Assembly (NCBI GenBank): GCA_963575745.1
Contig: CAUYUJ010018460.1
Location: 41,001-105,000 of the forward strand
Source: Prorocentrum cordatum
Taxonomy: Eukaryota > Sar > Dinophyceae > Prorocentrales > Prorocentraceae
Length of the DNA stretch: 64,000 bases
Direction of reading: 5' to 3'
The position numbers and the translations under genes are program-made. Positions within the stretch are counted from its first letter, which is position 1. Each line of letters begins with the position of its first letter. Shown in pieces: positions 1-25,286 of the stretch. A model generated the notes under the pieces. It had not been told where the DNA came from, ran no database searches, and worked only from the letters and a program-made list of their open reading frames with translations.

Positions 1-1325
1 GCGCCTGAAACACGCCTGTTGAGTGTGGTAAGTCTGCCTGATGAAGTCTGGCACTCCCCTACTGCCTGATGATATCGAATGGGCAGTAGGTTGGACGGCC
101 ACCTCTGGCGTTGTCGGTGCGGGCATGAAGGCCATGTGCGGATACGTGGACTGATCACTGCAGCGCACATTCGTGAGGCTATGAAACTGATCCAACGTCT
201 CGCGAACAAACCTGTTTGGGACTCTAGACCCATCTGGGTACAGTGGCGGATCCATTGGCGCTGGCGCTGGCCTCTGGCCCTGGGCCATGCTCGGATGAGC
301 ATTGAAGGCTGGGACGAAGGCTCGTTGCCGAGCAGGGCCCCGTGGGTTCGGACCTTCTGGCTCCCAGGACCAGGCCGGCCTCCACCTCTGACCACTCGGG
401 TGGGGCAGGTTATGACTCTGCACCTGTTGCACCGCAGCTGCCACCCTTGCGCGGTAGTCATCAGGCACTCCAGCAACAGTAGTTTGGCCAGCAAAAGGTC
501 GGTGGTGTATTGGAGTGCCGGGCAGGTTTCCCTGCAGACTCGTTGGCGTGCCAGGTGGCATCATGTTCAGGAGAGCTGTGCCATGCTCAGCTCTGGCCGC
601 GGCGATCCTCTCCATGAGAGTGCCATTCGTGGCAGAGCGACCAGGAGTCCCAAACGGAGACTGCGCTGGTGGCGTCGCCACTGGGGTCATGCCCCTCGGT
701 GTGTGCATGCTATGCGAGGGGCTCCCTGGCATCTGCTCAAATCGAGCAGGCTCTCCGAAGATACGGCCGAACGTCTGCGGGTCCCCCTGCGGTTCGGGCA
801 TATCATTTCTGAGTCCATTGACGGGCAGTTTCCCTGCATGGCCTGACGGTTACGCGTCACCATGGCGGACATGGCTCCCTGGCCAGCGGCCCAAGGGTCT
901 TGCTGGTACAGTCTGTCCGCCAGCTGTTCCACCTGCTCAGGATTTAGAGCGGCCGCGATCTGGTCCAGATCTGAGGTGCTAAGGACCTGCCAAGATATGG
1001 CAGTAGGCCCTTGGCTTGGAGCACGGCTTGGAGCCGCGCTTCCTGCCTCACTCTCATTGACCATAAGGATATGTTGGGTTTCGGGCTGGTTTCCCAGCAC
1101 GGTTGGGCTGTAATGGTCCCCAACTTCTCTGTGACCATGAACCGTATGAGGATCATTAACCTCTCGGTCACGAGACCACTGGTACTTGACACGAGCACTG
1201 CCCACATTAGTCCACCTGTCCGGGGCCGTCATTATGGCGGTGGAAACGCGTGCAAGGCGATTGCCCAGATATTCTGGGTTACGCCATTGTTTACCCGTGG
1301 AGAGGTCTTCCACGTGTGAAATATA
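1..1325 (-). CDS. Retroelement polyprotein, segment after KptA (broken, runs off window)
   Basis: Open frame continuing in phase with the KptA frame after an in-frame TAG at 1326-1328. From 1325 to about 838 it encodes a polar, helix-rich stretch (for example SDLDQIAAALNPEQVEQLAD). At the hairpin at 825-837 one base is missing and the coherent frame moves to a second frame, which stays open to position 1 and is rich in Pro, Gln and Met (for example TPRGMTPVATPPAQSP). No catalytic motif of protease, integrase or reverse transcriptase is visible. The encoded protein resembles a structural or linker part of a Gag-like polyprotein; this is inference. Four tetraloop hairpins lie inside. True product and end are unknown because the window stops here. 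Confidence 0.55.
320..333 (-). repeat. GNRA tetraloop hairpin 1
   Basis: Sense strand stem GCTCG/CGAGC, loop GCAA. Read in frame as Ala-Arg-Gln-Arg-Ala, not in the usual G-N phase. Confidence 0.85.
522..535 (-). repeat. GNRA tetraloop hairpin 2
   Basis: Stem GCAGG/CCTGC, loop GAAA; read as Gln-Gly-Asn-Leu-Pro. Confidence 0.85.
825..837 (-). repeat. Tetraloop hairpin 3 with one base lost
   Basis: GCAGG-GAAA followed by CTGC instead of CCTGC. The missing C coincides with the point where the coherent reading frame changes, so the lesion in the hairpin is the frameshift. Confidence 0.8.
1085..1098 (-). repeat. GNRA tetraloop hairpin 4
   Basis: Stem GCTGG/CCAGC, loop GAAA; read as Leu-Gly-Asn-Gln-Pro. 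Confidence 0.85.
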
Positions 1326-2720
1326 CTACGCCTCAATGATACCGTCTTTTCCTTCAGATAGGAGAACTCCATTGTCGGACCAGCAAAATTTGATTCCGTC
1401 CTTCAGGGCACGATGCCAGTCCACAAAGATGACGATCTCGGACTCGGGGTCCCATCCACTCTCCACGCCGCGACGACGAAGCGTCGGTACGAAGTGGATG
1501 TGTGATCGGCCTGACCCTCTCTTCTTAGTGTTGCGTTCTTGGCGACGAGAGAGGCCATGCCACATAATGCCTTCAAAGGCTGCCCATCGTGCGCCACGCA
1601 TGGCAACCTCGGGATATGGGGCCGGTCTCCCGGCAGGGTTGTCGTGTAGCACAATGTACTTGTACAACGACCAAGGGGCCTTGAGCGTCCACGAGTGCCC
1701 TTGCGAGGCACGGATGAATATGTCGGATTTGCCAGAATCCCGTGCCAAGACCTTGAACTGGAGACGTTGCTTCTCCTCGCCGTCCGGCTCGCGGACGTGA
1801 GCGATCGCCATCATGATGGCAGCCATCTGGTCAACCGTTCTGCCGTAGAAGGTCTCGGCGATGATCTTGGCCTCATCCAGCTTAGGGTTATACCCGTCCT
1901 GCCCCGTACGTCCGTTGTGCCGCGGAAACTCGCGTGCGAGCTCGTCGAGATTGATCCATCCATCATGATCATCGAATGTCTCAAGGCTCCACACGGCATT
2001 GTGTGGTTTGTCAGGTGCGTGTCTGCAAATCCTGCTGAGGCATTTACTAAGCTGCTTGAGTGTATGGTTATGTCTCGGGACAAAACCTCTCTGTCTGCAG
2101 TTCTCCATGAATGCTTCATCCACCGAACGTATCGGTGGAAGCCTCCGCAGGGCACATCTGTCATTGATCAAGGCCTGACTCCCACTAGTGAAAGACGTGC
2201 CCCCTGGGTGGTGCAGCTTATCCTCGGGCAGGTTCCCCTGCAAAGGAGCCTCTGTCACCGAAGAGGCTGCGGCTCCTGAGGAGGAGGAAGCTGCAGCTGC
2301 AGCTCCTGGCGGGTTTCCCCGCGGTGTTTCTCGGCTGCCTCGGCTGGCGCCGTCCCTGTTCTTAGGCACCCAGGTACCCCTAGACAGAGCACCTTCCTCG
2401 GACCTCTTGGAGCGTGCCGCCACAGGCGCGGCCGGCGCAGGGGTAAACCCTGCACGCTTGAAAGCCTTGGCCTTGCCGGCGATAGACCCGCTACGGCTAG
2501 GTGGGCGTCCACGAACCTCCACAGAGTCCTGAGGTTGTTGCCCAGGGTCGGGTCTCTGTGCCGGAGTTGCTCTCTGTGCCGGAGAAGGAGTGGGGGCTTC
2601 TTTGTCCCCTTCATATAGATCTTTTGGGGCTCCAGCAGCATTTGGCGAGTTGCCTCGCGGGTGCGTCCCCCTGCTATTCGTTTGCGCTCCGCATCTGCTG
2701 CGGCTCGCTGGGCCCTCTGT
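1326..2720 (-). CDS. RNA 2'-phosphotransferase (Tpt1/KptA) domain protein of a retroelement
   Basis: Known family members remove the 2'-phosphate left at a splice junction by tRNA-type ligation, transferring it to NAD. Counting residues from the codon at 2520-2522, the N-terminal 150 are low-complexity (Ala, Ser, Pro, Arg). The KptA fold follows: LSKCLSRICRHAP with the Arg-His pair at 167-168, IRASQGHS at 270-277, WHG at 321-323, GRSHIHF at 338-344, and a C-terminal SDNGVLLSEGKDGIIEA. The four catalytic Arg/His positions of the family appear kept. The frame is open from 2720 with no ATG. An ATG start at about 2734 (MMNDDEQRAQ) lies in another frame and would need a shift near 2610. A TAG ends the frame inside the usual C-terminal strand of the domain. 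Three tetraloop hairpins lie within, plus one overlapping its open 5' part. It is probably the downstream half of the element whose Gag is at 22770-25286. Confidence 0.85.
   Translation of the reverse strand, partial: TEGPASRSRCGAQTNSRGTHPRGNSPNAAGAPKDLYEGDKEAPTPSPAQRATPAQRPDPGQQPQDSVEVRGRPPSRSGSIAGKAKAFKRAGFTPAPAAPVAARSKRSEEGALSRGTWVPKNRDGASRGSRETPRGNPPGAAAAASSSSGAAASSVTEAPLQGNLPEDKLHHPGGTSFTSGSQALINDRCALRRLPPIRSVDEAFMENCRQRGFVPRHNHTLKQLSKCLSRICRHAPDKPHNAVWSLETFDDHDGWINLDELAREFPRHNGRTGQDGYNPKLDEAKIIAETFYGRTVDQMAAIMMAIAHVREPDGEEKQRLQFKVLARDSGKSDIFIRASQGHSWTLKAPWSLYKYIVLHDNPAGRPAPYPEVAMRGARWAAFEGIMWHGLSRRQERNTKKRGSGRSHIHFVPTLRRRGVESGWDPESEIVIFVDWHRALKDGIKFCWSDNGVLLSEGKDGIIEA
1621..1634 (-). 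repeat. GNRA tetraloop hairpin 5, inside the KptA domain
   Basis: Stem GCCGG/CCGGC, loop GAGA; read as Ala-Gly-Arg-Pro-Ala between two conserved KptA blocks, likely in a surface loop. Confidence 0.85.
2228..2241 (-). repeat. GNRA tetraloop hairpin 6
   Basis: Stem GCAGG/CCTGC, loop GGAA; read as Gln-Gly-Asn-Leu-Pro. Confidence 0.85.
2309..2322 (-). repeat. GNRA tetraloop hairpin 7
   Basis: Stem GCGGG/CCCGC, loop GAAA; read as Arg-Gly-Asn-Pro-Pro. Confidence 0.85.
2645..2658 (-). repeat. GNRA tetraloop hairpin 8
   Basis: Stem GCGAG/CTCGC, loop GCAA. In the KptA frame it reads Arg-Gly-Asn-Ser-Pro, the same peptide as hairpin 9; in the overlapping ATG-started frame it reads Arg-Glu-Ala-Thr-Arg. 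Confidence 0.85.
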
Positions 2721-2761: not shown

Positions 2762-2791
2762 AGGTCCGGTGTGACAGCTTTTCTGTCACGA
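2762..2791 (+). repeat. Left terminal inverted repeat of the 18.69-kb unit
   Basis: Thirty bases starting AGGTCCGGTGTGACAGC, matching the right end in opposite orientation with two differences. Confidence 0.75.
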
Positions 2792-2875
2792 AATTTTTCG
2801 TGACAGTATTTGGTCACGCGCAGTAGATGCTAGCAGGCAGTGACAACATTTTGTCACGCCATTTTCTGTGATCGC
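2769..2875. promoter_or_regulatory. Subterminal hairpin cluster, left end
   Basis: Three imperfect dyads of the form GTGACA-N6-TGTCAC near 2771-2789, 2800-2816 and 2841-2858. Repeated dyads next to inverted-repeat termini are typical transposase binding sites; function here is inferred. Confidence 0.5.
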
Positions 2876-3177
2876 TGTTTTCTGTGCGCGACGCACAAAA
2901 AGTTTTATTTTCTATGTTTTGTTGCATCTTAAATGTAACATATGAATGTTGCGCGCGATGCCATCGCATGTTGATCGTTGCAGCAGTTCGATTCGCATGG
3001 CTGTCAATCGTTATGATTTTCTTGCGTTAATTGCGGATAAGAGTGAGGTTATGACATGGCTGCGGTAACGCAGGTGCAAATCACATGCGAGCCGCGGGCC
3101 ACGGTACGCGTCGCGAGCGAGACGCGGGCAGGTCGCGAGCGACTCGAAATACAAATTACGAAATTGTCCAACATAAC

Positions 3178-3430
3178 GCGGAGGAGGGAGAGGAGGGAGA
3201 GGAGGGGGAGGAAGAGGAGGAGGAGGAGGAGGAGGGCGAGGACAAGGAGGATTAGGAAGAGGAGGATAAGGATTGAAATGGAGATAAGGATGGAACGGGG
3301 GAGGAGGAGGAGGAGGAAGAAAAGGATGAGGAGACGGAGATGGAGGAGGAAGAGGCGGAAGAAGAGGCAAGGAGAAAGAGAAGGAGGAGGAGGAGGAGGA
3401 GGAGGAGGAGGAAGAGGAGGCGGCGGCGAC
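3178..3430. repeat. Purine-rich (GAG/GGA) tract
   Basis: About 250 bases of near-pure purine on the plus strand, mostly GAGGA units. Open frames across it (poly-Arg, poly-Ser or poly-Pro) are artefacts of the repeat. Confidence 0.85.
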
Positions 3431-3543
3431 GGCGGGCGCCCTCGAGGCGGCGCGCCCCTGGGGCCAGAACGCGCCCACAACTAACGAGCGACGAAGCGCC
3501 CGCCTCGCATCGAGGGCGCCAGGCCTGCAAGCCACATCACCGC

Positions 3544-3585
3544 CGCGTCACCGATGTCACCGATATCGGTGACATCGGTGACGCG
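3544..3585. repeat. Palindrome family K, copy 1 (42 bp, perfect)
   Basis: Perfect dyad built of two GTCACCGAT half-units on each side of a central GATATC, with CGC at both outer edges. Confidence 0.9.
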
Positions 3586-4150
3586 CCAGATGCGACCTGG
3601 CTGGTGTCCTTCAGCGGGGCGGTGCGTTTCGGTGATCGTTGTCGGATGGTTGCGCGCAGGGCGCACACTATCAAAGCGACGGTGGGCAGGCGGACGAACG
3701 TGCAACAATATCGGCGATGCGATCGGGGACCCAAAACTTAAGAACCTGAGGCATCATGCATCGATTCGACGCCACAAATATTGATACGGACACATGTTAT
3801 TCAAACGTCGGGTTCCCCCATCTTCGTCGTTGCCCCTTCGTTCATCCGTCTCCCCCTCATCTGCCTCATCGTCCCCCTTCATCCCCTCCTCCTCCTCATT
3901 GTCCTTCTTTTCCTCCTCCTCCTCCTCCTCGTCATCATCCCCTCTTCGTGAGGTTGGTCGTCCACCTCATCCGACCTGTTGAGTTGCGTTGGTCATCCTC
4001 CAGCTGCCCGTCATTTCCTTCTCCCCTCTCATCCCCTGCGTCTGCGTCATCAAGATCTCCCCGCCCCCCCGAGTTAAGCGAAACCGTTTTCTGCCAGTTC
4101 CAGCGCCTGGAGATACCGCGTCGGTGCGATCGTTTAGCCGATTGTGGCCT
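3586..4150. other. No supported gene; pyrimidine-rich stretch
   Basis: Non-repetitive DNA to about 3800, then CCTCCTCAT-type low complexity to 4060, resembling an intron of a minus-strand gene. No convincing exon was seen. Confidence 0.5.
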
Positions 4151-4157
4151 TTAAATC

Positions 4158-4160
<3 letters not shown>

Positions 4161-4208
<48 letters not shown>
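4161..4208. repeat. (AG)24 microsatellite
   Basis: Uninterrupted AG dinucleotides, 48 bases. Confidence 0.95.
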
Positions 4209-4211
<3 letters not shown>

Positions 4212-4621
4212 TCGCGCTCGTGGCTGGGTTCTTCGGCCTGTCTCGCGCGCCGCGGCGATGGCGCAGATGCAGGGGGGGAGAGGGGGAGGGAACGGACTGG
4301 CAGTTGGAGGAGGAACACCGAAACTCAACTGGTCGGACGTGGTGGAAGCCCAAACGGACGAAGAGGGGGAAAGGCGGGGGATGGGGAGGAGGAAGAGGAG
4401 GAGGAGGAAACGGAGGACAAGGAGGAGGAGGAGGATGAGGATGAGGATGGGGGGAAGGGGGATGGTGAGGCAGAGGAGGGGGGGACGGATGAGGGACGGG
4501 GCACCGACGAAGATTGGGGAACCCGACTGTCAAATCAAATGGTTCGGCATCAGTTGACACGCATGCGTGGCGTCGATTCGATGCATGCCGCCTCAAGTTC
4601 TTAAGTTGTGGGCTCCCGATC

Positions 4622-5075
4622 TCATCGACGATGCTCCCCTTTCGGTCCCCCTGCTGATGCCGCGTGCGTTGTCTTGTGATCGGGGTTATCCGAAGATTTG
4701 CGTTTGCTGTCTCGCGCATCGGGTTCGGTTGCTTTATGATTATTCGGATCGTTTGTATGCATGTTGCGTTGCTCATCGTGCGTTGGCTGCAATTTCTCGG
4801 CATCGGTTGGCTGCTTCGGGGTCACAAACAGTATGGGTGGTGTGTCGAAGCACATGTGCACCGCTGGCAACGTGCTGTCGAATGCATGGTGTTCAAGATT
4901 GTCGATGCCAACTGGCGTGTTCAATGTGATCCCGCCCCAGCCTCATCGAGAGAATTGCCGCGAGCTGGTCGACCATGTCACGCGGCATGCCGATCGGATT
5001 TGTAAACCCCATGTCGCCATCCGTGATGGCCCCAACGTTATCAGTCCAGCGTGCGAACCTTCAAACCACTCGGCA
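4622..5075 (-). CDS. Coding-like exon(s), function unknown
   Basis: Two overlapping coherent minus-strand stretches. The first (about 5070 to 4893) contains FARWTDNVGAITDGDMGF and then MPRDMVDQLAAILSMRLG and ends with a stop. The second (4924 to 4622, starting at a non-ATG codon) is polar and Lys/Asp-rich and ends with a stop. They need a splice or frameshift to join. No domain recognised. They lie between the microsatellite at 4161 and the palindrome at 5534, inside the 18.69-kb unit, and could be 3' exons of the neighbouring minus-strand gene or a separate broken gene. Confidence 0.35.
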
Positions 5076-5249
5076 AAACCTTCGAGCTGGGACGGTGGGG
5101 CGGGATCGAGTAATTGTGACCCATAACAAAGTTGACGCGTTGCCCCAGTGGGGCATGAGAGGGACGAGGCTGACGGAGAAGGGATTTGGGAGGGAGGGGC
5201 GATGAGGGCGAACAGGAACGAGCGCATGAGGAAAACTGAGGATGGGTTC

Positions 5250-5431
5250 ACCACGATCCAGACGCGAGGCAGACTAAGATTTCTGACGCCGCGTGGTCTG
5301 CGTTGCCCCAGCTGGTCATTCAGATACCCCCCATTGAGATCACGAGGCGCGTCGCGTATCCAGGGGCCCTGGACGCTATATATGCAAACAGTGACACCTA
5401 CGCGAACGCCCGCGCAAAACTGTCGTGTCAT
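5250..5431 (-). CDS. Possible exon, function unknown
   Basis: Minus-strand open stretch with APRDLNGGYLNDQLG and a hydrophobic end. Composition looks coding rather than repeat, but no family was recognised and splice sites cannot be fixed. Confidence 0.25.
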
Positions 5432-5533
5432 CTAAATTGCGATGCCATGGTGCCCAAACACACGATGCCGCGCACCGAAACGCACCTCACCCCCACTCGA
5501 AAGACACGGACTAGGAGGGGCCATCACCGCACA

Positions 5534-5569
5534 GTCACCGATGTCACCGATATCGGTGACATCGGTGAC
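5534..5569. repeat. Palindrome family K, copy 2 (36 bp, perfect)
   Basis: Same core as copy 1; the outer flanks differ, so the shared unit is the 36-bp dyad. Confidence 0.9.
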
Positions 5570-5637
5570 GTGCCGCGCGTCGCTTGGTTGGCAATCGTCG
5601 GTGGATGTGGGGCGGAGGTGGTGTTGGGTGGTGTAGA

Positions 5638-5670
<33 letters not shown>
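5638..5670. repeat. (TG)n microsatellite
   Basis: About 16 TG units. Confidence 0.9.
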
Positions 5671-5676
<6 letters not shown>

Positions 5677-6176
5677 ACATGCGTCGTTCGTCGTTCGATG
5701 CCAGATTGCCGTGCCAGGTGACGTGCGTGAAATGTCGCGGGATCGGATCTTGGGCGGGTGGGCCCCCGAATGTGATGGGGCGTCAGTGGGCGGGGGAGGG
5801 TTCAGCGGACCCATCATTGATATTGCATTGCTAGTGTTTGCCATGCAAGTTCGGAACTCGTCCGCAGGTCATTCGAAACGTGCGCCCAAGGCTGGCGCTG
5901 CACGCACGCCGAGCAGCTCGTGCCCGGCATCCTCGTCGCAGGCGGGCCGCTCTGAGGGGGGCGCGTTTGTTTGTGCTGTTGTTGCGTTTCTCATGGTGTT
6001 CGTCTTAATCAGCTTACCACCGTTCCCCTCCCATCTCATCCGCATCCCTGTTTCCCTCCTGAAAGTCACACCATTCAACCCAGCGTTTCTTTACATCGGC
6101 ATTTCGTTCATGCGCCCCCCCCAAGACCAGCTCGCATTCGTCCGTGGCTCACGATCGCGAGCTACGCGCAAACATC

Positions 6177-8315
6177 TCACGGACCTGGCGGCCCGCCCGC
6201 CGACAGGATTGGCGAAAACGCTGACACGATGGCGCTGGCAAAAGCTGCGCAAAAACTATCTGGGTATTCTGCAGATAAAGTAATGAGTGGCTTGGCCCCA
6301 GACGTCCACCCTTTCTTGGACCAGCCCCCCTTGGAGTGCGTCCTGCGGGGCGTGCGGACAGTCAAAGCTTGCTTGCCGCCGTCCAGGCGATCGGTGGCTT
6401 GCTGCTTTGACCTGTACAGGGGCGTCAGAAGTGATTTCGGAAGAGTGCTCCAGATGGCCGTGGGCTTCATCGACAGGCCGCCCCATCCGCCCATCCAGAG
6501 AAACAGGTACTCGGACCTCGTGTTCGTCAGGGTTGCCCGTACGTTGCGATCAAAATAGAGCAGGCTCGCCAGCGGCTGTTCCACCGATGCGTAAATGCTC
6601 CTGGTCCCCGCCAGGAAGTAGAGGAAACACCTTCGTGGCTCCGATGGTCGACAACGCACCCCACGCATATTCGATGCCCCCTCGCCATTATCATCCTCCT
6701 CCTCCCCCGCATCATCCCCCTCCCATGTATCTTCTTCAGTATCCTTCTCTTCCTCCTCTTCATCGCGCCCTCCTGTGCTCATAGCACGCCGTCGCCGTAT
6801 ATAATCGTCATCCTCACCGTCGCCCTCGCCATCCTTATCCTCGCATGCGTCGTCCTTCTCCGCCTCCTCCTGCCTCCCTCTCGCCTGTTCCCCCCCCTCA
6901 TCCTTATCCCCCGTCCGCCCCCCCACCCCGTACCACACTTCCACCCCCGCCACCATCCATGCCTCCATGTGTCATGGCATCCCTCCAGGTCGGCGGGGTG
7001 ACATCGATATGCGCAAGGTTACACGTTCAGTTCTTACCACCAGGATCAGCATGGATCATCGCATGCCGTCACCGATGTCACCGATAACGGTGACATCGGT
7101 GACGTTGGTGCGCCGCCAGACACGCTATCACACCAGAGAGATTACGTTCGTCACATTCTACAGCCCACGGCGTTTTCGAGTTTGATCGAGGCCGATCCAG
7201 CCTGGTTGCGACGAGACCCCTGGAACGCAGCGCTGGGAGTGCGCACGTGCAGGGCCCTGGATAACCCCTTAGCGTTTAAGCGTCCCGACTGACATTGCCC
7301 TCGCCGTAAAGTTGGCGTGGAGAACGTCGGTCCGTGACGGTGTTCCTGTGGTATCGCCCCTCTTCCGTTTGGTGTGGCCTGTTGACAGTCCCAGCCACGT
7401 CTTGCACTCTGGCGCGAAGTGAACGGTGCCGAACGGGAGCACGGCGCACACCAGGTACATGGCGTACAGCAGCCCAGCCTGCGAGGGCTTGCGACAGTCA
7501 GTGTAGTAACATCCCCATGTCATCTTCGTTATCATTCCCCCACACCTCCTCATTATCCTCCATGTCGGGCCCCCCCATCCTCATTCCCGTACATGCTCCA
7601 CCTCCTCCTCGTCATCCGTCTCTTGTTCCCCCTCCCCCTCCCCCCCACCTCATCGTCCTCGTCTTTCCTCCACCCCCGCCTCATTCCTCATCCTCCACGT
7701 CCTCCACCTCATCGTCCTCCACGTCCTCCACCCCCGCCTCACTCCACGTCCTCCACCTCATCGTCCTCGTCTTTCCTCATTCCTCCCGAAACGGTAGCGA
7801 TGAGAGGGGTGGGGAAGTGTTTTGCCCGACGGGAGCCACGGTGCATATGTTCTGGGCGGCGCCGTCGTCGACTCGGTCGAAGGTGGCGCTCTTGTGGCCG
7901 AGCCTGGCGACGTGGAAAGAGATGCCAGCTTTCCCTGAAAACAGCTCTGCGAATACGAGCGAGCGGGGGATGGCGGCCATCGATCCCATCAAATAGTCGA
8001 CGGCCGCGGAGAAGGCAATCTCACTGCCGCCATCCTCGGAAAACATGATCTCTCGAATTCCATTCTTGGCAAGCTCTGCTGACCCAGCTGCTGCCCACTG
8101 CAGGCCATCAACCAGCGGTGGCTGCACCCCGTGCGCCGTCACCGCAATACATTGCACGATGATCGTTGTCAGCATCCGCCAGCAAGGAGACAGATGCTCT
8201 CCCCGAGCGGAAAGAACGGGCAGATATTGAGCAGGTGCTGCAAATGAAATAAACTGAACACCCTGTGCTCGAACCGAGACCGATGGGCAAATATACACAC
8301 TGACCGTAAAGCGCT
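6177..8315 (-). CDS. ELFSG-motif protein, SAM methyltransferase-like, multi-exon
   Basis: Three minus-strand exons can be followed. About 8310-7805 contains SLVFAELFSGKAGISFHV, which resembles motif I of cytosine-5-methyltransferase-like folds. About 7530-7262 contains HFAPECKTWLGLSTGHTKR, a Pro/Cys-type block. About 6660-6177 contains SIYASVEQPLASLLYF (an EQP block) and MGGWGGLSMKPTAIW, then a TGA stop. From memory, the order ELFSG, PxCxxW, EQP, GGxSxKP is a common dinoflagellate multicopy protein; I know no proven activity. Introns are pyrimidine-rich on the plus strand, and one holds palindrome K copy 3. The start lies upstream; exon edges are approximate. Could be a decayed copy, but no stop was seen in the conserved blocks. 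Confidence 0.55.
7068..7103. repeat. Palindrome family K, copy 3 (one central mismatch)
   Basis: GATAAC replaces the central GATATC; both arms are otherwise intact. Lies in an apparent intron of the ELFSG-motif gene. Confidence 0.85.
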
Positions 8316-11520: not shown

Positions 11521-11524
11521 GATA

Positions 11525-15345: not shown

Positions 15346-15380
15346 CTACGGCGATCGAGGAGCAAGCGAGCTAAAACTGC

Positions 15381-16541: not shown

Positions 16542-17306
16542 GTGAACGCCCGAGAAGGCACTCGAGCAGCCAAAACGGCTATTGCGATGGCAACGGAGGG
16601 GGTGAGGACCAGGAGCAGGAGCAGGATCAGGAGTAGGAGTAGTAGAAGGACCATGGTTATACTAATTGTGAATCGGATGACCAGGACCAATCTCGTCGGC
16701 ACCCTGAGTGGAGAGGACTGACAGGCCGCAGGTGGGTGGCGCGAAACGAGCGAGGGTGACTATCCGAGAGCCCCGCGTGCCGACTGATCTGATAATGGGC
16801 GAAATAAGTTTTGGATGGGGGGAGGGGGGGGGGGTCGGAGAGGAGGCATTAGCTTTACGGGCCTTGGCGGTTGGTAGTTTACTAAACTTCCCCTCATCAT
16901 TATTCTTATTCTCAGACCCCTTGCTCATCCTATATCGCCATCCTCTCCTCCCGCCCCTCGCGGTATCCTCGACTGGCCACCGCCCATCCTCCACCAATCC
17001 GCCATCATTTACCGTGCTCATTCTCCTCGTTATCATCAGCGCTGAGGCGCATTCGAGCTGTCACACTGCACGCGACCGCAAGTTATCGAGCCGAGTGGAG
17101 CGTGCACGCACGACGCTAGCTGCGCGTCTTCACGCGAGCCAGCCAAACTGCTGCCAATGCTCGTCACCGCTTTCAGATGTAGCATCAGAATGATGTGGGC
17201 TTAACGCGTGAAGTCCTGGAAGCTTCAAGGGACACCAGGGGTCGGGTCATCCAATCTGCCAGCGGTGATCCGAAGTTCTGGCGGCGACGGGAGCACAGCA
17301 GGAAAA

Positions 17307-18104
17307 TCAAAAGCAAAAGCCCCCCATGCCCATCGGGATGGGAGGGCACTCTGGCGCCTGGGGCCTCGGCGCTGGCGCGGCCGACGCCTGAGTTCCAGGC
17401 GTGCTCATCGGCTCGGCGGGCGGCGACTGCTTCGGCGCGGTGCCCGATGCCGCCGCCGCCTGCGACGACGACGCGGCGCCTGGCTGCTGCGAGGGGGACT
17501 TCTCCTTGGTCGCCGAGGCCGCGGACGCCGTCGCCTTCGGCCTCGGCTTGACCAGCACCCCTGCCAGCACCTGAGCACTCTCGTCCGCGCTAGCGGCGGC
17601 CTCCTCTGGCTCCTCCTCGGGCGCACTCTGGTCGCCCTCCTCTGCCTCCTCGGCGTGGTCATCCTCAGCTTCACCGTCATCATTATCATCATCTTCGCCA
17701 TGAGGTGCGGCGATGTCCTCGTCCGCAATCTTCGTCTTCTTCACCTCATGGCTCACGGCGCAGTCGACGCCCTTGCTGGCAGGCCGCTTGCCGACCTCGC
17801 CCTTCTTTTTCCTGGGGAAGTGCTTCGCCTTGTCCGCCTCCATCTCCGCCTTGGTGATGCTGCCGTTGGCCCACTTCTCCGCCGCATGCACGATCCAGGT
17901 CTTGCCCGCGGCCATCTGCTCGGGCTCCACGATGAGCTGAAGGACCTGCGTCTTCGGCTGGTGCCACACCTGCAACCAGATGGCGTCCTTCTTCTTGACG
18001 GTTCTCGCCAGCACGGCGTTCCCGTCCTTGACGCCGCGCCAGAGGATGGCGTCGCTGTCCTTGCCCTTGCTGGCCTGCGGGCTATCCACGAGGTCGCCAG
18101 GCAC
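17307..18104 (-). CDS. Last exon of a second multi-exon gene of unknown function
   Basis: Stop TGA at 17307-17309. A structured block comes first (DAILWRGVKDGNAVLARTVK, WLQVWHQPKTQVLQLIVEPE, GSITKAEMEADKAKHF), then a basic patch KRPASKGVDC, an acidic run (EDDDNDDGEAEDDHAEEAEE) and a low-complexity Ala/Pro/Ser tail. From memory, similar text closes a multicopy dinoflagellate protein that also has a GWDxE block, seen here in an upstream exon (18775-18940). No known activity. Confidence 0.6.
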   Translation of the reverse strand: MPGDLVDSPQASKGKDSDAILWRGVKDGNAVLARTVKKKDAIWLQVWHQPKTQVLQLIVEPEQMAAGKTWIVHAAEKWANGSITKAEMEADKAKHFPRKKKGEVGKRPASKGVDCAVSHEVKKTKIADEDIAAPHGEDDDNDDGEAEDDHAEEAEEGDQSAPEEEPEEAAASADESAQVLAGVLVKPRPKATASAASATKEKSPSQQPGAASSSQAAAASGTAPKQSPPAEPMSTPGTQASAAPAPRPQAPECPPIPMGMGGFCF

Positions 18105-18424
18105 CTGGCCGAGAAAAAAAAAAACTCCATCCTCCTCCGCCTACGTCCCTCATCCCTCATCCAGTGATATTCTCTCTCATCCCCATCCTTATCCTCACCC
18201 CCCTTCGCTCTGCATCGTCGTTTCGTCCTCCGCCAGCGCCATCCTCGCAACCCTCTTGGTGCCAAGAATCCTCCTCCTCCTCCTCATCCTCCTCCGCCTT
18301 CTCCTCCTCCATCCACCCTTCCACCACCACCTCCCCATCATAATCCTCCCATTGCTTGTCGTGTTCTCGATCCTCGCGTCCTCCTCATCGATGCTAGGGG
18401 CAGGGACGGGGTGGGCGACTTAGC

Positions 18425-20853
18425 CCCCGATTGACCTCCCACGTCACAGCGCCGCCCCACGCCGCCGTCCAGCGGCCGTCGATGAGCTTCGGCGTCGTGT
18501 AGTCGTTCGCCGTCGTGCCGTCGACCTTCCTGCGCCACGCAGCCTTGGGGTAAGCTGGAATCGTCGGCGTGCTATGCTACTCGCACCATCGTCCCCCTCA
18601 TCTTCCCCTTCCCCCCCTCCTCATCCACCCACCCCTCTTACTCCCGCATCGCCCTCCTCCTCGTCCTCGTCCTCATCGAGTTCCCCCCCCCCGTCCCATC
18701 ACCATCCCACTCCTCATCCCGTTCTCACCGTCATCTTCTCCTCCTCCATCCTCCGCGTAGTTTAGCTTAGGTTACCATCTCCCCCCTTATCACCCTCGCT
18801 GCCTGCAGCTCATTGTCCCAGCCGAACTCCCAGATGCCGACGGTCGTCGTCGCCTCGCCAGCGCGCGCAGCTGCGACGCGAGGGGCAGCTGCTGGCCTGC
18901 GCATGCGCGTGCCAGTCTCCTGGGGGGGGGGGGTGACCGATTCCTCCGCCATCTCTCCGTTCCATGTCGTCGCTCACGAATCGCACCCCTTTACTCCAGA
19001 TTTCGGAATAAAGTGAGGGGGGGTCTCATTTCGGGGGGGGTCTCGTCCAGGCTATCTTGGAGGGCCCAGGGGGTCGGGGGATGATGTTTTGGAGGGTTCT
19101 CCCACGGGGGATGTCTGAAATGACTTGTCTTGGAGGGTCCAGGCCCCCTCCCTTTTATTACGAAATCTGGAGTGTCCATTATCCTCGTTATCCTTTTTCT
19201 TCCTCCTTCTCTCCTCCTCCATCTCATCATCATCCACTCCCATCCTTCTACCTCCCTATACCTCTCTCTCTCTCTCTCTCCACTTCCTGTTCTCCATCCT
19301 TTCCGACGACCCCCCCATTCCTTCTATCCACCCCTTCCTCCATCCATCCGCCTCACCCTTCCCAACTGTTTCTAAACGTCCCGTCCTCGGCCGAGTCGAC
19401 CCTGGATGCTGTGCCAGCGCCGTCGATGAACTCCTGCGCCCACTTCGGCACGTCAGTCCTGTCGGCTGATCGGCCCCCCTCTTTCTCCTTTTCCTCATCT
19501 TTCTCCTCATCTTCCTCCGCCACCCCCCTTGCCCGCCTCATCCTCATCCCCTCATCTTCTTCCACCTCCTCATCTTCACCGTGCGTCCGCCAGCATCGCC
19601 CTCATCCCCCTCATCATCTTTCACCATCCGCCTCCGCTCATTCCTCCCGATCCTACTCCGACTGCTACTCCTATCCCTCCGTGGCCTGTCCGCCCCGTTC
19701 TCGTCCTCCTGCTCTACGCTCCTCCGCCATCCTCACTTTCTCCACCTGCATTGGCCACCTCCTCAGTCTTCCGCATTATTTCCTCCTCCTCCTCCTCCCC
19801 CCCCTCCTCCTCCTCCTCCTCCTCCTCCTCCTCCTGTGACTTACCCCTCACTCCAGAACGTGTCAAATCGGTCCTTCCGACCGCTCTCCCGACGTGGCGA
19901 ACCATGACGCGGATGGACCTGGCCATGTCGCCCGCCCACGGCTTGGCCTCGTTCGCCAAGCGCCATGTGTCGCGGTTGCGGAACGCGAGCTGCAGCAGCA
20001 CAGCCTGGCCGAGCAAGGCAAACGATGCGCGCGCACCGGCGCGAGCCTGATCACGCTGCACACCTGACCCGCATCGCAGCTGCGTCACCGATGTCACCGA
20101 TATCGGTGACGTCGGTGACGCCGCGGTGAGTCGAGTCAGGTGCGCAGCGGCATCAGCTTCGCGCGCATGCGTGCGCTCGTCGTTTGCCGTGCGTAGCCTC
20201 GCCGCGCTTCTGGCTGATCGAGCCCAGCTTGCGGGTCGCCATGATCAGGTCCTTGTGCCGCTTCAGCTCGAGCTCGTCGCGCGAGTCGTCCATCACCGTC
20301 GTGCACTTGATCCTTAATCGTCATCGCCCCCCATACCCTCTCGCCATCATCCAGCTCCCCTCCCTTCACCCGCGACCCGCCTCAGCCTCCTCCACCCTGC
20401 TCTCTCTCTCTCTCTGTTTCTTTATCTGTGTGTATATATATGTATATCTTTCTCCCTCTCTTCTTCCTTCCCTCCCTCCCTCCCTCGTTCCCTCGCCTCT
20501 CTCCTCTCCTCGTTCCGTCCATCCGCCTTCCCCTCTCTCTTTCCCTCCCTCCTTCCGCCCCCCCCTCCGTGCCCTACCTCCTTCCCCTTCGACCCTGCCC
20601 CCCCCCTCTCCTCCCCCCCTCGCCCTCCCCCCCTCCTTCCCCGATCGGTCGACCAGCAGCCGACCGATAGATCAGGGCCCCGAACGATCGACTGCGCGCC
20701 GCGCGCCGAGCGCGGCGCGCAATCGGGCTCGTGACGTGCTGCTCCCACAGCGCGAGCAGCGGGTCGTCGTCGCACGCGGCGTCGCCATCGTCGGTCCCTG
20801 CGTCCGCCGCCCGCGCGACTGGCGTGGACACGATTCCCTTCCTGGGAGCCATG
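18425..20853 (-). CDS. Upstream exons of the second multi-exon gene
   Basis: Five or six short exons separated by pyrimidine-rich (plus strand) introns: about 20853-20640 (starts MAPRKGIVSTPVARAAD), 20330-20130 (RDELELKRHKDLIMATRKLG), 20055-19860 (NRDTWRLANEAKPWAGDMAR), 19468-19370 (DVPKWAQEFIDGAGTASRV), 18940-18775 (TTTVGIWEFGWDNELQAARV) and 18560-18425 (IPAYPKAAWRRKV, then LIDGRWTAAWGGAVTWE). Palindrome K copy 5 lies between the second and third. A family J element lies in the intron between 19370 and 18940. Borders are approximate; splice sites were not resolved. Confidence 0.5.
18993..19173 (-). mobile_element. Inverted-repeat element family J, copy 2
   Basis: Same element as 11525-11701 in opposite orientation, ends ACTCCAGATTTCG and its complement, inserted in an intron of the gene ending at 17307. 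Confidence 0.85.
20084..20119. repeat. Palindrome family K, copy 5 (one mismatch)
   Basis: Same core dyad; one T to C change in the right arm. Confidence 0.85.
20400..20660. repeat. Pyrimidine-rich intron-like tract
   Basis: CT microsatellite followed by CCCTCCCTC-type text; on the coding minus strand it is a purine-rich intron. Confidence 0.7.
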
Positions 20854-21129
20854 CCTCGAGCCTCGAAGCTCCCGCGGGGGGGGGCAGGGAGGACGGGGGC
20901 TGAATCATCAGCCCAGGACCCCCCCCGCGCACGGTTGGCAACCGGAGATGTCGGAGGGCGGAGGAGGGCGGGGTCGGAGGAGGACAAGGAGGAGAAGGGG
21001 GAGAAGAACGAGGGAGAGGGAGAAGGAGGAGGAGGAGGAGGAGGACGGAAACGGACGATGAAGGGAGGAGGATGAGGAGGAGGAGGAGGAGGAGGAGGAT
21101 CAATACAATATTACAACAACTCGAATAGG

Positions 21130-21320
21130 CGCGCAAACGCGTTTAGGTTGCTGCGCTCGCGCGGCATCTGGCAACCAACCCCTCCCGCCACGCGGCAGAG
21201 CGCCTTATATACACACGTATGTTGATATGGTATTGTATTCACCCAAGAGCTCAACACCGCTAGCTTTGTTTACTCACGTGCCAAAATAATACATTTGACT
21301 GTGATTATCATGTTGTTGAT
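21130..21320. other. AT-richer inner edge of the right end; no gene
   Basis: Non-repetitive DNA between the last intron-like tract and the right hairpin cluster, locally AT-rich. Nothing supported. Confidence 0.4.
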
Positions 21321-21335
21321 TTTCGCGCGCAGTCG

Positions 21336-21440
21336 TCGTGACAACATGTTGTCACGACAGTGGTTCGCGACAAAATCTTGTCACAGAGACGTCTCGTGAC
21401 AATATGTTGTCACGAGAAACATCGTGACAGGAAAGCTGTC
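21336..21440. promoter_or_regulatory. Subterminal hairpin cluster, right end
   Basis: Four dyads of the GTGACA-N6-TGTCAC type near 21337-21354, 21367-21382, 21395-21412 and 21424-21442; two are near-perfect palindromes (GTGACAACATGTTGTCAC). Confidence 0.55.
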
Positions 21441-21451
21441 ACACAGGACCT
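21422..21451 (-). repeat. Right terminal inverted repeat of the 18.69-kb unit
   Basis: On the minus strand begins AGGTCCTGTGTGACAGC; differs from the left end at two positions. Confidence 0.75.
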
Positions 21452-21471: not shown

Positions 21472-21485
21472 GCGAGTTTCCTCGC
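21472..21485 (-). repeat. GNRA tetraloop hairpin 9
   Basis: Stem GCGAG/CTCGC, loop GAAA; read as Arg-Gly-Asn-Ser-Pro. Confidence 0.85.
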
Positions 21486-22158
21486 ATTCCAGGAAGGCGA
21501 TAGAGCGCGTCTTTTTCTTCCTGGGTCATAGGCACCAGTCCTCTCGGAGGCTGAAGCTCCTCGGCCACAGGTCTCCTATGGGCAGTGGTTCCGAGACGTC
21601 GGTTGATCTCGTCGATCTCTGCTTGAGTCATCGGAACCAACGGTGGATGACCCTCCTTGGCAGGAGTGCGGCCTCTATTCGGGCTCAAGCTCACATTGAG
21701 CCCCACAGGGCGCCCAGGCCTATGCTCCTGAAATGGCTCTGAGCACGGCCCACAAACTGCGTTGGGTCTGTATAGTTTGCGTGCTGCAATGACATCTCGC
21801 AGCTGCGTCCGTACTTCCTCTATTTCAGGACGACGAATATTCGTCGCGAGCTGGTAGCCACCTCGCATGGACTTGCCTTGGGCATCTCTGTAGGCTGGGT
21901 TGCCTTAGCAGAATGTTCACCCTTCTGACGCCTAGGGTCATTGTAGGCGAGCAATTGACCCCCCCCGCCGAGCGGCGTGCTCCTTTGGGCCTGCTTGCCT
22001 CCATTCGCGGGGGAGCCGTGCTTGCGGATGAGGTTCTCCCCTGAAGCGTGGATGAGAGCGAGACCTCCTGGCGTGCTCATCAGATGAAGCCGCCGACGCA
22101 GCCTGAGCAGGAATCGGCAGAGGTTCCGGCTGGGCCGCAGGCGGTGCATCTTGAGCGG

Positions 22159-22172
22159 GCAGGTCTCCCTGC
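22159..22172 (-). repeat. GNRA tetraloop hairpin 10
   Basis: Stem GCAGG/CCTGC, loop GAGA; read as Gln-Gly-Asp-Leu-Pro. Confidence 0.85.
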
Positions 22173-22371
22173 TGACTGAAGCCCGGCACAATTGGCTCTT
22201 GTGCCGGTGGTGGTGCATCAGGCATGTCGAGACTGAAATCCACCTCCTCTTCACCATTGACCTCCATCATGAGGATTGTGGTCTCGTCCTCGCACATCCC
22301 ACATCCATCATCCTCTTCATCCTCTAACATAGGACTGCCGATGACAACGGTCATCGGTCCAGCCGGGGCGG

Positions 22372-22385
22372 GCAGGTTTCCCTGC
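22372..22385 (-). repeat. GNRA tetraloop hairpin 11
   Basis: Stem GCAGG/CCTGC, loop GAAA; read as Gln-Gly-Asn-Leu-Pro. Confidence 0.85.
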
Positions 22386-22446
22386 GGTGCCAGCGTCTGA
22401 GCATCGCTTGGCTGTCCCGGCGTAGGCGGTACGGTAGTCGGCTCAG

Positions 22447-22460
22447 GCTCGTTACCGAGC
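22447..22460 (-). repeat. GNRA tetraloop hairpin 12
   Basis: Stem GCTCG/CGAGC, loop GTAA; read as Leu-Gly-Asn-Glu-Pro. Confidence 0.85.
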
Positions 22461-22769
22461 GCAGGCTGCCCGACAATATTCCGCATGGCCATATGGTTAC
22501 GCTGTAATCCCGCCGCCTGGAGACCCCATCCTGGCGGAGGAAGAGCCTGACCACGCATGGAGATGGCCCTATCAGAGCTTGGCGCCACCTCCCTCTGGAA
22601 TACCACACATGCCGCTGCACGTCCTCAGGGTGCACGCTATCAATAAGACTGAGGGCCGCCAGCGCTAACTCCGAGTCGTCACAGGCATCAGTGTCTTGTA
22701 GCATCATGTGGCCAGCTTCGGCACTCTCTTGACTCTCGGGATATGCTACGACCAATACAGCGTGCATCT

Positions 22770-25286
22770 TCATGGAGTCTGCAGTGGCGTGTGCGGTCCG
22801 TACTCGCCTGGGGCAAGCGAGCCAGGTGGTATAAATGGGTCCCCTGGCACGCCCGTCACGGACGCTTGAGACTCTAGCTCCATCAGATCAGCATAGTTTG
22901 GAGGATATACAGAAGTAGGCCTGTTTCCAGGCATAAGGTCGGGTTGAGGTTGAAGGTTGCGATCAACCTCCGAAGGCGAGGCTTGAACAATATCATCTTC
23001 GTCACTGCTCTCGTAGGCCATGATGTTGCCTGGGTTACCGAACATCCAGTCAAAGAAGGAAACAGGCTGGTTTCCCAGCGTTCCATGTTCCACAGGCGTA
23101 AGCTCGTTATTACCGACAACGAACCTGCGGAGGTACTCGAGGTAGTACGCGTACAGTCCGTGGCCGTGCGCCTCGAGCTCATCCAAGTTGTCCATGCAGC
23201 TGACCCAAGTGTAAAATATCTGTTCCATGGCCTCAAAATCTTGGAGGCTCAGATATTCAATAACTGGTTCACTTGAGCCGAAATGGACTTCGGTCGATCT
23301 GCCCTTTCCATTTCCCTTCGCTGGACAATCTTTTACAAGATGATCGGTACTGTCACATTCATGGCACTTTAGGATCTGGCCGTCTCTACCTCGCGGGTTT
23401 CCCCGCCTACCTTTGCCTTTGCCTGCGGTATCTCTACGGCCTTTACCGCGGCCTTTTCCCCCGAAGAATATCTCATCATACTGGTCATCTGAGAGCCTCT
23501 GGAGGAAGGCCGCGATGCCTCGTCCATTCAACCTACGGCGACCCCGTTTGCCTTTACCTTTTCCTTTGCAAATCCTCCGTATCCTCCTCCTAACACGACG
23601 CGCCGGTTTTCGTGTGAACCTCCTCCACCTCCGCTTTGCCTGTTGTAATAACCAGAACAGGTGTTCGGCACGCTGATTGTCACCTTCCATATGCATGATA
23701 TCTGACCAGTCTAAAGGTTCAACACCGTCTGATGATATGGTATCGGTGTCGGTGCCGGAGTCGAAATCGTCGTCTCCCAGGTAGGTGGATACACCGTCGT
23801 TTAGGGGGTTTGCTTCACCCCATAAAGAACGGTGTGGTTGAGGTTCTCCAGGAGGGGGGCTGATTGCCCAGCTCGGTTGTGACCGATCCCCTGTTAGTAG
23901 GGCAGTAGACTCACCAGGACCGTCGGCCCATATGCTTGAGGGCCCATTGCCAGGCTGAGCTTCGGTGGTTAAGGTAGTGTAAAAGTTTCCACTACCAGTT
24001 CCTCTTCCTCTTCCAAACACTGACCCTATGTTACCTGGGGACCGTTCTGACAAATGGCCTACCGAGCGCATCCTCTCGAGCAACTCCTCATACTGTTGTT
24101 GTGTTCGGGGCATTTGGTGGTTGAGTGGCTGCAAAAGTTGCATAGCCCTCTGGCTGCCGACGCCTAGGGCGCGGAATCGGATAGTAGTAAGCAGTTGGAA
24201 GTTGGGAAGGTCAAATCCCACAGACTGTGCCTCGAGACGGGCCATTTCGAACCGAGTGAGAGTTACATCGATTCGGTCTCCGCGAGGCACATGCAAGTCG
24301 ATGAGTTGTGTGCCTGAAGCGAGCTGGCGCTCATCTTCCAAACGTTCGAACTTCATGCTTAAGAGGAACATAATGTACGTTACTGGGTCGGAGTGGACAC
24401 CATCGATGTCCGCACCATAATTTATAATGTCAGGTGGTACCCTCATGGCGAGTGTCCTCGCTAAGCCACCCAGGCCGCGTTGTATGGCGGCTGCTTGGGC
24501 CTGCGGCGTCATGCGTCCGCTTGTGACGTTGAGCCACGCGTTGACCTCATAAACGTACTCGCGGAAAGGTACGTTGCCTTGAGGGTCCCAGTATGGGCCA
24601 TGTGTTTGCCCATCTGTGCTATTATCTCCTCGGCGCATGTATCCGATTGCCGCCCCCAGCGCAAACCATATGATGGCGAAGATAACCAGCCCAAGGCTGT
24701 GAAGATGTGGGTGGTTATCCGGCGCGTTGCCGCGCTGGGGTAGCGCCTTGTCAAGTCTTCGAGGCGCTTTATCTTGCGGGTCTCCCCGCCTCTGCTTCAA
24801 GTACTGCGCTTTTGGCTCGTTGCCGAGCGGTTGGTAGTAGCGCAGTGATGAAGCGTATATGGTACCAATGTTGTTGTCTAGACGTCGTACCTCTCGTGTT
24901 GCTTCTTGCTCTTGAATTGATCCTCGTAAATGTAGTTGGAGTGGTGGCGCAGGGTGGTAGTTGGTCACGAAGATCGTGTCGGATAGCGTGAGGATAAGAA
25001 GAGCAAGAGCTGACCACACGAGAGTGCGGCCAGCTCCGCTACCAAGTCTGAAGTGACTATGGTAAGCCAAATAGCATCCGATTCCATGGGAAGCGGATGG
25101 CAAATAGCGTCCGGTATCGTACTGAGGTGGTTCAGTAAGAGAAATGGACGGATAAGATAGGATAAGATCGATGTAATGATCATTCCAGCACATAGCGAAC
25201 ACGAGCAGTGTCCGGGCAAATAGGGCGCGCGTGCCTTGAGCCAAAGGCAACGGCGCGCGAGCTATACTCCCGATCCTATATAACAT
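22770..25286 (-). CDS. Gag-like protein of a dinoflagellate Ty1/copia-type element
   Basis: Structural nucleocapsid-type protein expected to bind element RNA. ATG choices are 25286 and 25193; the second is preferred because a spliced-leader relic lies at 25235-25253. Near the N-terminus are two hydrophobic segments (TLVWSALALLILTL and LGLVIFAIIWFALGAAIGYM). The Gag region follows: YWDPQGNVPFREYVYEVNAW, QAAAIQRGLGGLARTLAMRV, DPVTYIMFLLSMKFERL, then a block ending LLERMRSVGHL. A basic Gly/Lys/Arg part leads to one CCHC knuckle, CHECDSTDHLVKDC (near 23330-23370). The C-terminus is acidic and Pro-rich, ending at a TGA that overlaps the next ATG. No interruptions in about 840 codons. Eight tetraloop hairpins lie inside, one of them held by wobble pairs. 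Confidence 0.85.
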   Translation of the reverse strand: MLYRIGSIARAPLPLAQGTRALFARTLLVFAMCWNDHYIDLILSYPSISLTEPPQYDTGRYLPSASHGIGCYLAYHSHFRLGSGAGRTLVWSALALLILTLSDTIFVTNYHPAPPLQLHLRGSIQEQEATREVRRLDNNIGTIYASSLRYYQPLGNEPKAQYLKQRRGDPQDKAPRRLDKALPQRGNAPDNHPHLHSLGLVIFAIIWFALGAAIGYMRRGDNSTDGQTHGPYWDPQGNVPFREYVYEVNAWLNVTSGRMTPQAQAAAIQRGLGGLARTLAMRVPPDIINYGADIDGVHSDPVTYIMFLLSMKFERLEDERQLASGTQLIDLHVPRGDRIDVTLTRFEMARLEAQSVGFDLPNFQLLTTIRFRALGVGSQRAMQLLQPLNHQMPRTQQQYEELLERMRSVGHLSERSPGNIGSVFGRGRGTGSGNFYTTLTTEAQPGNGPSSIWADGPGESTALLTGDRSQPSWAISPPPGEPQPHRSLWGEANPLNDGVSTYLGDDDFDSGTDTDTISSDGVEPLDWSDIMHMEGDNQRAEHLFWLLQQAKRRWRRFTRKPARRVRRRIRRICKGKGKGKRGRRRLNGRGIAAFLQRLSDDQYDEIFFGGKGRGKGRRDTAGKGKGRRGNPRGRDGQILKCHECDSTDHLVKDCPAKGNGKGRSTEVHFGSSEPVIEYLSLQDFEAMEQIFYTWVSCMDNLDELEAHGHGLYAYYLEYLRRFVVGNNELTPVEHGTLGNQPVSFFDWMFGNPGNIMAYESSDEDDIVQASPSEVDRNLQPQPDLMPGNRPTSVYPPNYADLMELESQASVTGVPGDPFIPPGSLAPGEYGPHTPLQTP
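22919..22932 (-). repeat. GNRA tetraloop hairpin 13
   Basis: Stem GCCTG/CAGGC, loop GAAA; read as Pro-Gly-Asn-Arg-Pro. Confidence 0.85.
23066..23079 (-). repeat. GNRA tetraloop hairpin 14
   Basis: Stem GCTGG/CCAGC, loop GAAA; read as Leu-Gly-Asn-Gln-Pro. Confidence 0.85.
23272..23293 (-). other. Spliced-leader-like sequence inside gag
   Basis: On the minus strand CCGAAGTCCATTTCGGCTCA and AG follow; compared with the dinoflagellate leader it differs by two substitutions and one inserted T. It lies just after the zinc knuckle in an open frame. May be a relic or chance. Confidence 0.35.
23393..23406 (-). repeat. GNRA tetraloop hairpin 15
   Basis: Stem GCGGG/CCCGC, loop GAAA; read as Arg-Gly-Asn-Pro-Arg next to the zinc knuckle. 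Confidence 0.85.
23942..23955 (-). repeat. GNRA tetraloop hairpin 16, wobble-paired
   Basis: Stem GCCTG/TGGGC, loop GCAA. Two changed positions keep pairing in RNA as U-G and G-U; read as Pro-Gly-Asn-Gly-Pro. Confidence 0.7.
24722..24735 (-). repeat. GNRA tetraloop hairpin 17
   Basis: Stem GCGCG/CGCGC, loop GCAA; read as Arg-Gly-Asn-Ala-Pro. Confidence 0.85.
24776..24789 (-). repeat. GNRA tetraloop hairpin 18
   Basis: Stem GCGGG/CCCGC, loop GAGA; read as Arg-Gly-Asp-Pro-Gln. Confidence 0.85.
24815..24828 (-). repeat. GNRA tetraloop hairpin 19
   Basis: Stem GCTCG/CGAGC, loop GCAA; read as Leu-Gly-Asn-Glu-Pro, 26 bases from hairpin 18. Confidence 0.85.
25235..25253 (-). other. Degenerate dinoflagellate spliced-leader relic 5' of gag
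   Basis: Minus strand CCGTTGCCTTTGGCTCAAG. Relative to the leader it has one substitution and a two-base deletion; the last 11 bases are exact. It lies 42 bases upstream of the ATG at 25193, where a trans-spliced leader would sit in a retroposed mRNA. Confidence 0.55.

Follow-up and report, generated by a model that had tools for sequence, protein, structure and literature searches.

An LTR retrotransposon in the genome of Prorocentrum cordatum carries an array of short hairpins that are kept as RNA: the array is found on the sense strand only, its synonymous positions are constrained and its base pairs change in a compensating manner. The RNA of the element would carry about 35 copies of a single word, GCNNG-GNNA-CNNGC (a 5-bp stem with a G..A tetraloop), scattered through coding sequence. 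We infer, with a probability of about one half, that these are dispersed RNA recognition sites that the Gag protein of the element reads for packaging.

The element and its sense-strand array

The window analysed here, a stretch of 64,000 nucleotides, lies on contig C17611 of the 4.13-Gb genome; the adjoining 10 kb are referred to as L009. The window contains the 5' part of an LTR retrotransposon of ~18.7 kb (without insert), interrupted by an 18.7-kb insert (2769..21444). Paired direct LTRs flank the coding region, with segments that are 87% and 97% identical and tandem repeats inside, the 5' LTR (25331..26633, minus strand) matching the 3' LTR, which lies beyond the window at contig 30300-31497. 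The region 25044-25311, immediately internal to the 5' LTR, is repeated with 98% identity at contig 31662-31929, close inside the 3' LTR. The Gag ORF (22770..25499, minus) includes a conserved core, over which relatives are 66-71% identical, an arginine-rich stretch and a CCHC-like knuckle recognised by eye, with Pfam scores below cut-off; an AlphaFold model of the core made from four sequences had a pLDDT of 37.7. Downstream of Gag there is an ORF with three hairpins (21938..22624, minus) and another with four (1326..2720, minus) that codes for a KptA/Tpt1 RNA 2'-phosphotransferase domain (PF01885, 81.5 bits against a cut-off of 26, E 1e-22; the NCBIfam models scored far below their cut-offs). 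Judging from the sequence, the presence of this domain in an LTR retrotransposon could possibly reflect RNA end repair before reverse transcription. One hairpin is found in the ORF downstream of KptA (687..1325, minus) and two in the ORF that leaves the window (1..849, minus), the element continuing in L009. There, an ORF coding for a RING-type zinc finger was found at L009:8955-9950 (minus; PF17123, E 4e-8). The RVT_2 reverse transcriptase, a marker of Ty1/copia-type elements, scored just below its cut-off of 31.6 (PF07727, 30.3 bits, E 4e-7), and no integrase or protease match was obtained in the ORFs scanned. The initial annotation had proposed a retroelement with Gag and a KptA-like domain, and the LTR pair, the PF01885 match and the Gag ORF bear this out. 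The copy in the window is broken, with several frame changes and a one-base deletion within a hairpin near 825.

The insert, probably a DNA transposon, is bounded by a 13-nt inverted repeat (2769-2781 and 21432-21444) and contains TCGTGACA-type repeats. Ten other ORFs of the window had no Pfam match. The window also contains two 73-bp tandem arrays in opposite orientation (47678-48078 and 58631-58864, 81-90% complementary) and a TAC trinucleotide array of 1.9 kb (53400-55280).

An exact pattern search recovered all 17 of the minus-strand 14-mers GCNNG-GNRA-CNNGC that had been reported, with the same positions, the same eight stems and the same loops (GAAA 8, GCAA 4, GAGA 3, GTAA 1 and GGAA 1), the minus strand being the sense strand of the element. 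With equal base use, arithmetic gives the paired pattern a chance of about 1 in 2 million per position, in agreement with the figure stated earlier, and the free pattern one of 1 in 131,072. The free pattern GCNNGGNRACNNGC, in which pairing of the NN positions is not required, had 20 matches in the window, against a mean of 2.72 and a maximum of 7 in 100 shuffles. Eighteen of the 20 were on the sense strand of the element, and in 17 of these the NN were complementary (chance 1 in 16); the exception was an imperfect hairpin with one A.C mismatch (777..790, minus), imperfect too in the two relatives compared. The remaining two matches, at 5713 and 60431 (plus strand), had non-complementary NN. 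The former is the single free-pattern match in the 18.7-kb insert, so that the earlier impression of an insert devoid of such hairpins holds for paired GC-start ones. Elsewhere in the window only one GC-start GNRA hairpin was found, at 59330 (minus), and its closing pair is C-G.

Markov models of order 1-3 predicted 0.02-0.04 GC-start hairpins on average in the 6.8 kb searched, against the 17 observed. Synonymous-codon shuffles of five ORFs gave means of 0.07-0.19 for observed counts of 6, 3, 4, 1 and 2 and failed to reproduce the counts in four of the five; the count of ORF 1-849 was matched by 1 of 1000 shuffles, whereas that of ORF 687-1325, with a single hairpin, was reached in 66 of 1000 and is not significant alone. 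A covariance model built from the 17 scored its members at 20-27 bits, the next sites at 16.8 and 15.5 and the rest of the window below 14. The stems have exactly five pairs, a sixth being possible in none of the 17. A C follows the hairpin in 15 of them and a G is found two bases later in 12, with no other similarity in the flanks. Fifteen hairpins share one reading phase, two of these being in uncertain frames. When folded with 120-nt flanks, the 17 had a mean pair probability of 0.85, compared with 0.59 for 12 other tetraloop hairpins, one of which (24448) turned out to belong to the family; two of the 17 (24722 and 2228) scored below 0.25 and several controls folded equally well. No Rfam match was obtained in the window at gathering thresholds, and no spliced-leader relic was found with up to 3 mismatches. 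Near-hairpins had no sense-strand excess in the window alone (4 versus 3 unmirrored on the other strand), and at three of the four on the sense strand hairpins were afterwards found in related copies. The relatives have hairpins at four more sense-strand positions in all: 24448 (loop GACA), 23942 (with G-U pairs), 23859 and about 825.

The array extends ~9.5 kb outside the window, where the sense strand of L009 has another 17 GC-start GNRA hairpins. Here the free pattern had 18 sense matches, 16 of them complementary, and one antisense match that was not; for the window and L009 together, 33 of 36 sense matches are complementary. Along the 16.2 kb of internal sequence the sense strand has 34 GNRA, 2 GNYA and 3 other GC-stem tetraloop hairpins, and the antisense strand has zero GNRA and zero GNYA GC-stem hairpins. 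Each of the 11 internal ORFs examined has at least one hairpin, and none were found in the LTRs. Control DNA taken from flanking sequence, the insert and the C1 flank (82.5 kb, both strands) was nearly devoid of them, with 1 GC-start GNRA and 3 GNYA hairpins.

Constraint and covariation among copies

We compared 30 Gag copies, the best-scoring of 150 scored matches (7451 candidates at first look). In each of them 5-9 GC-stem GNNA hairpins were found on the sense strand, and the opposite strand had none. Nine sites gave 1350 pairs, of which 1297 were Watson-Crick, 47 G-U and 6 broken, and 30 of the 47 G-U pairs correspond to a single wobble pair at 23942..23955, where both the window copy and its relatives have one or two such pairs (this and all the following sites are on the minus strand). 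The hairpin at 24815..24828 (GCTCG-GCAA-CGAGC) was the same in 30 of 30 copies, the one at 24448..24461 in the conserved Gag core (GCGAG-GACA-CTCGC, a GNCA loop) in 29, that at 22919..22932 (GCCTG-GAAA-CAGGC) in 28, and that at 23393..23406 in the basic/CCHC region of Gag (GCGGG-GAAA-CCCGC) in 24. The site at 23859..23872 was perfect in 29 of 30, with one wobble pair in the window copy only, and GCGCG-GCAA-CGCGC at 24722..24735 was the same in 20, the other 10 having the loop ACAA. At 24776..24789 (GCGGG-GAGA-CCCGC) the closing pair was G-C in 13 copies and A-T in 17 with no intermediate, and at 23066..23079 (GCTGG-GAAA-CCAGC) pair 4 was G-C in 20, U.G in 9 and G.U in 1. Within stems, 7 of 34 third codon positions varied, against 368 of 718 elsewhere (Fisher p 0.0006). 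Two further copies with 87-88% nucleotide identity in Gag, 2 of 79 matches listed, had all nine sites paired, wobbles included.

For the region downstream we used four of the 150 matches (L045-L048), chosen without viewing their downstream hairpins. Compared with the window copy they had 69-79% identity outside hairpins and 93-98% inside, and over a longer stretch L045 and L046 had 81% outside and 96-97% inside; the hairpin columns in these comparisons were those with at least one perfect copy, which introduces a mild bias. In an in-frame comparison with hairpins defined on the window copy alone, identical third codon positions were 52/57 (L045) and 54/57 (L046) inside hairpins against 797/1206 and 794/1208 outside, i.e. 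91-95% versus 66%. Between L045 and L046 there was no hairpin excess (96.9% inside and 98.2% outside; 98.0 and 98.4 in a second alignment), as expected if inserted copies drift and selection acts on the replicating lineage only. Between L047 and L048 the excess was small (99.0 vs 95.8; 96.4 vs 94.3).

Hairpins identical in four copies were found at 320..333 (GCTCG-GCAA-CGAGC), 522..535 (GCAGG-GAAA-CCTGC), 1085..1098 (GCTGG-GAAA-CCAGC) and 2309..2322 (GCGGG-GAAA-CCCGC), while GCCGG-GAGA-CCGGC at 1621..1634, within the KptA domain, was identical in three of four. Two copies could be compared at 2645..2658 (GCGAG-GCAA-CTCGC) and 21472..21485 (GCGAG-GAAA-CTCGC), both identical; a gap at 21472 in the four-copy alignment was an artefact of the short reference piece. 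Nearer to Gag, GCAGG-GAGA-CCTGC at 22159..22172 was identical in L048 with one mismatch in L047, GCAGG-GAAA-CCTGC at 22372..22385 was identical in both, and GCTCG-GTAA-CGAGC at 22447..22460 kept its stem with the loops GCGA (L047) and GCAA (L048). The decayed site at 823..839, with its one-base deletion in the window copy, was perfect in three of four relatives. At 2228..2241 the window copy has GCAGG-GGAA-CCTGC and three of four relatives have GCGGG/CCCGC, an A-T to G-C change, the closing pair being broken in the fourth. Alignment of related elements had been suggested as a check on the stems, and they do covary, with compensatory changes at the homologous sites 24776, 23066 and 2228, and at L009:3891 against position 18749 of a distant element on contig C1.

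The four copies compared downstream (C6882, C1657, C14735 and C2403) had 94-95% protein identity to the C17611 element in the Gag core but only 70-81% DNA identity downstream, which looks like mosaic recombination between subfamilies.

A distant family with another main loop

The C1 element was chosen for four complementary GNRA matches in a row on contig C1, so that its GNRA hairpins are ascertained, unlike the GNCA ones. Its Gag shares 40% identity with that of the window over the matched range and other ORFs are 27-71% identical; KptA is common to both element families examined, the C1 match being 27% identical, and so are the arginine-rich stretch and the CCHC-like knuckle of Gag. The C1 sense strand has 38 GC-stem GNNA hairpins in 16.1 kb, namely 31 GNCA, 2 GCTA and 5 GNRA, at least three of the 38 being within an alanine-proline-rich repeat, and a further 14 GC-stem hairpins with other loops. 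On its antisense strand there were no GNYA and 4 GNRA hairpins, none of the four with a G-C closing pair. The free GNNA pattern had 32 sense matches, 30 of them complementary, and 1 antisense, non-complementary. One stem is common to 25 of the 38 hairpins, and they are mostly in phase 0. The main loop class thus differs between the two families, GNRA in the window element and GNCA in C1.

Twenty hairpins of the window element could be aligned to C1, and only three were kept perfect and gapless (24776, L009:1811 and L009:3891), indicating that the positions turn over. L009:1811 has an A-T to T-A swap with respect to C1 20839, and L009:3891 an A-T to G-C swap with respect to C1 18749, involving two synonymous changes and the same peptide AGKPA. 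In addition, a hairpin is found in equivalent positions at L009:3222 and C1 19405 when a gap of one residue is allowed, and 23393 keeps four pairs in C1; the remaining alignable hairpins were lost or shifted. As many as 95 C1-family Gag cores, among 143 scored of 7900 candidates, had 100% identity and the top score, pointing to a very recent burst, and many of these identical copies are in open frames of about 3000 aa.

A pattern search of the whole genome had also been proposed and gave the complementary stem GCAGGGNRACCTGC in far larger numbers than the non-complementary control GCCTGGNRACCTGC (10,239 vs 655, for this one pattern pair). The free pattern had 225,229 matches genome-wide and its reversed control 149,592. 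Among the 100 matches listed for GCAGGGNRACCTGC many fall in same-strand runs. Runs consisting mostly of GCAGGGCAACCTGC were seen at C2:1599294-1609392 and C2:1732684-1742809, perhaps a further hairpin-bearing family.

Three Gag relatives from other sources (P0006, P0007 and P0008) were found, and an alignment search returned the same three. In this genome P0006 had 79 scored matches, with 60-67% identity. Hairpin-compatible peptides were seen at the protein level, AGQPA in P0007 and P0008 and several in P0006; AGQPA, which can be a hairpin in DNA (L009:8216), is found four times in P0007 against 0.0014 expected. Those of P0006 exceeded 400 of 400 residue shuffles and 400 of 400 dipeptide resamplings, the observed sum was reached by 3 of 400 residue shuffles for P0007 and by 1 of 400 dipeptide resamplings for P0008. 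The loop classes TNRG and CNRA outscored GNRA in the P0007 and P0008 proteins, so that loops cannot be read from protein and the peptides of the three relatives are only supportive. The whole KptA ORF used as protein query gave no scored match, and Gag, KptA and alignment scans of viral contigs and genome contigs gave no confirmed relative. In the open-access literature, at the level of titles and abstract openings, we found no dispersed GNRA hairpins in a retrotransposon and no KptA in one.

Possible readers of the hairpins

The reader of the hairpin word would be one of the element's own proteins, most probably Gag with its arginine-rich and CCHC region. With so many sites on one RNA, Gag would be gathered on it, and the genome would be condensed, packaged and told apart from host RNA. 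In phages lambda and P22, boxB is a hairpin of ~15 nt with a 5-bp stem starting GC and a GNRA-like loop, bound by the arginine-rich motif of the N protein. It has a pentaloop, is present in few copies and acts in antitermination, whereas here the loop is a tetraloop and there are about 35 copies.

As expected of dispersed packaging signals, many similar stem-loops are found along the element RNA under selection at the RNA level. Many short genomic stem-loops with proposed coat-protein contacts are outlined for MS2 (PMC4751978), enterovirus-E (PMC7793301) and satellite tobacco necrosis virus (PMC6475782). The signals of small RNA viruses, as outlined for the latter (PMC6475782), are degenerate, while in our case the stems have exactly 5 bp, perfect pairing and constant GC ends, selection can be seen in the sequence, and the array is carried by an LTR retrotransposon. 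Ty1 is a copia-type element, and its Gag binds its own RNA (PMC8396678); its signals are at the 5' terminus and include a pseudoknot (PMC5454406, PMC8396678), the abstracts making no mention of a dispersed hairpin array. According to the same summary, Ty1 Gag prefers packaging-signal RNA in competition and binds different RNAs with similar affinity, affinity explaining packaging only in part (PMC8396678). Packaging alone does not account for the strong phase bias within an element, which may stem from encoded peptides that are tolerated in flexible linkers.

More tentatively, the loop class, mainly GNRA or mainly GNCA, could be a mark of family identity read by each family's own Gag, whose own RNA would be packaged despite related families in the nucleus. 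The class is not strict (5 of 38 are GNRA in C1 and two are GACA in the window element) and, the basic region of Gag being alike in both families with different main loops, no covariation of loop and reader is seen.

It is rather unlikely that a host factor reads the hairpins, or that they have a role in export, stability or translation control of a very long transcript. The RNA-level data are compatible with any reader in trans, and the extent of the array, over all ~16 kb of the internal region, might suit a coating or export signal, yet a host reader would be expected to use one loop class across families of one genome and the main classes differ.

The initial annotation had also considered a self-spreading mini-hairpin that copies itself to new places within the element, which the comparison of copies makes improbable. 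The near-uniform phase within each element (15 of 17 in the window, mostly phase 0 in C1) and the single stem of 25 of the 38 C1 hairpins would fit such copying, but copies with 20-30% divergence have them at constant positions, where no indel of hairpin size is seen. No insertion polymorphism with a clean empty site was found at shared sites among the three to five copies compared, and at C1 16194 the hairpin-free counterpart in the window element is shorter by one codon only. Several sites align gaplessly with hairpin-free C1 sequence, indicating that hairpins can arise or go by substitution. Besides, the flanks have no similarity beyond the C (15/17) and the later G (12/17), the hairpins are on the sense strand only, and insertion of 14 nt alone would shift the frame. 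Rickettsia palindromic elements are palindromes inside coding sequence, longer and mobile. The hairpins described here are also in coding sequence, but no insertion footprint is seen and their stems covary.

Slightly less probable again is a role in reverse transcription or recombination, with the hairpins as pause or template-switch points in RNA or single-stranded cDNA. Their dispersion along the whole template and the mosaic appearance of the four copies mentioned above would agree with it, but as a pause site a stem of 5 bp is weak, and the combination of fixed GC ends and a GNNA loop resembles recognition rather than mere stability. Selection on the encoded peptides, e.g. as linkers or protease sites, is strongly disfavoured and the least probable of all in spite of the recurrence of xGNxP, AGQPA and AGPPA, the same hairpin format being obtained from different peptides in different phases, with synonymous positions that are constrained and can change in pairs.

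Reading of the dispersed hairpins by Gag for packaging would bear on how Gag chooses its own genome among cellular RNAs, a question for which this array is a natural test system. Each genome offers about 35 uniform, easily recognised and covarying sites, copies are numerous and the main loop differs between families, so that short RNAs and a fragment of the protein are enough for a test of specificity. The hairpin word can also serve as a simple signature when other genomes are searched for such elements.
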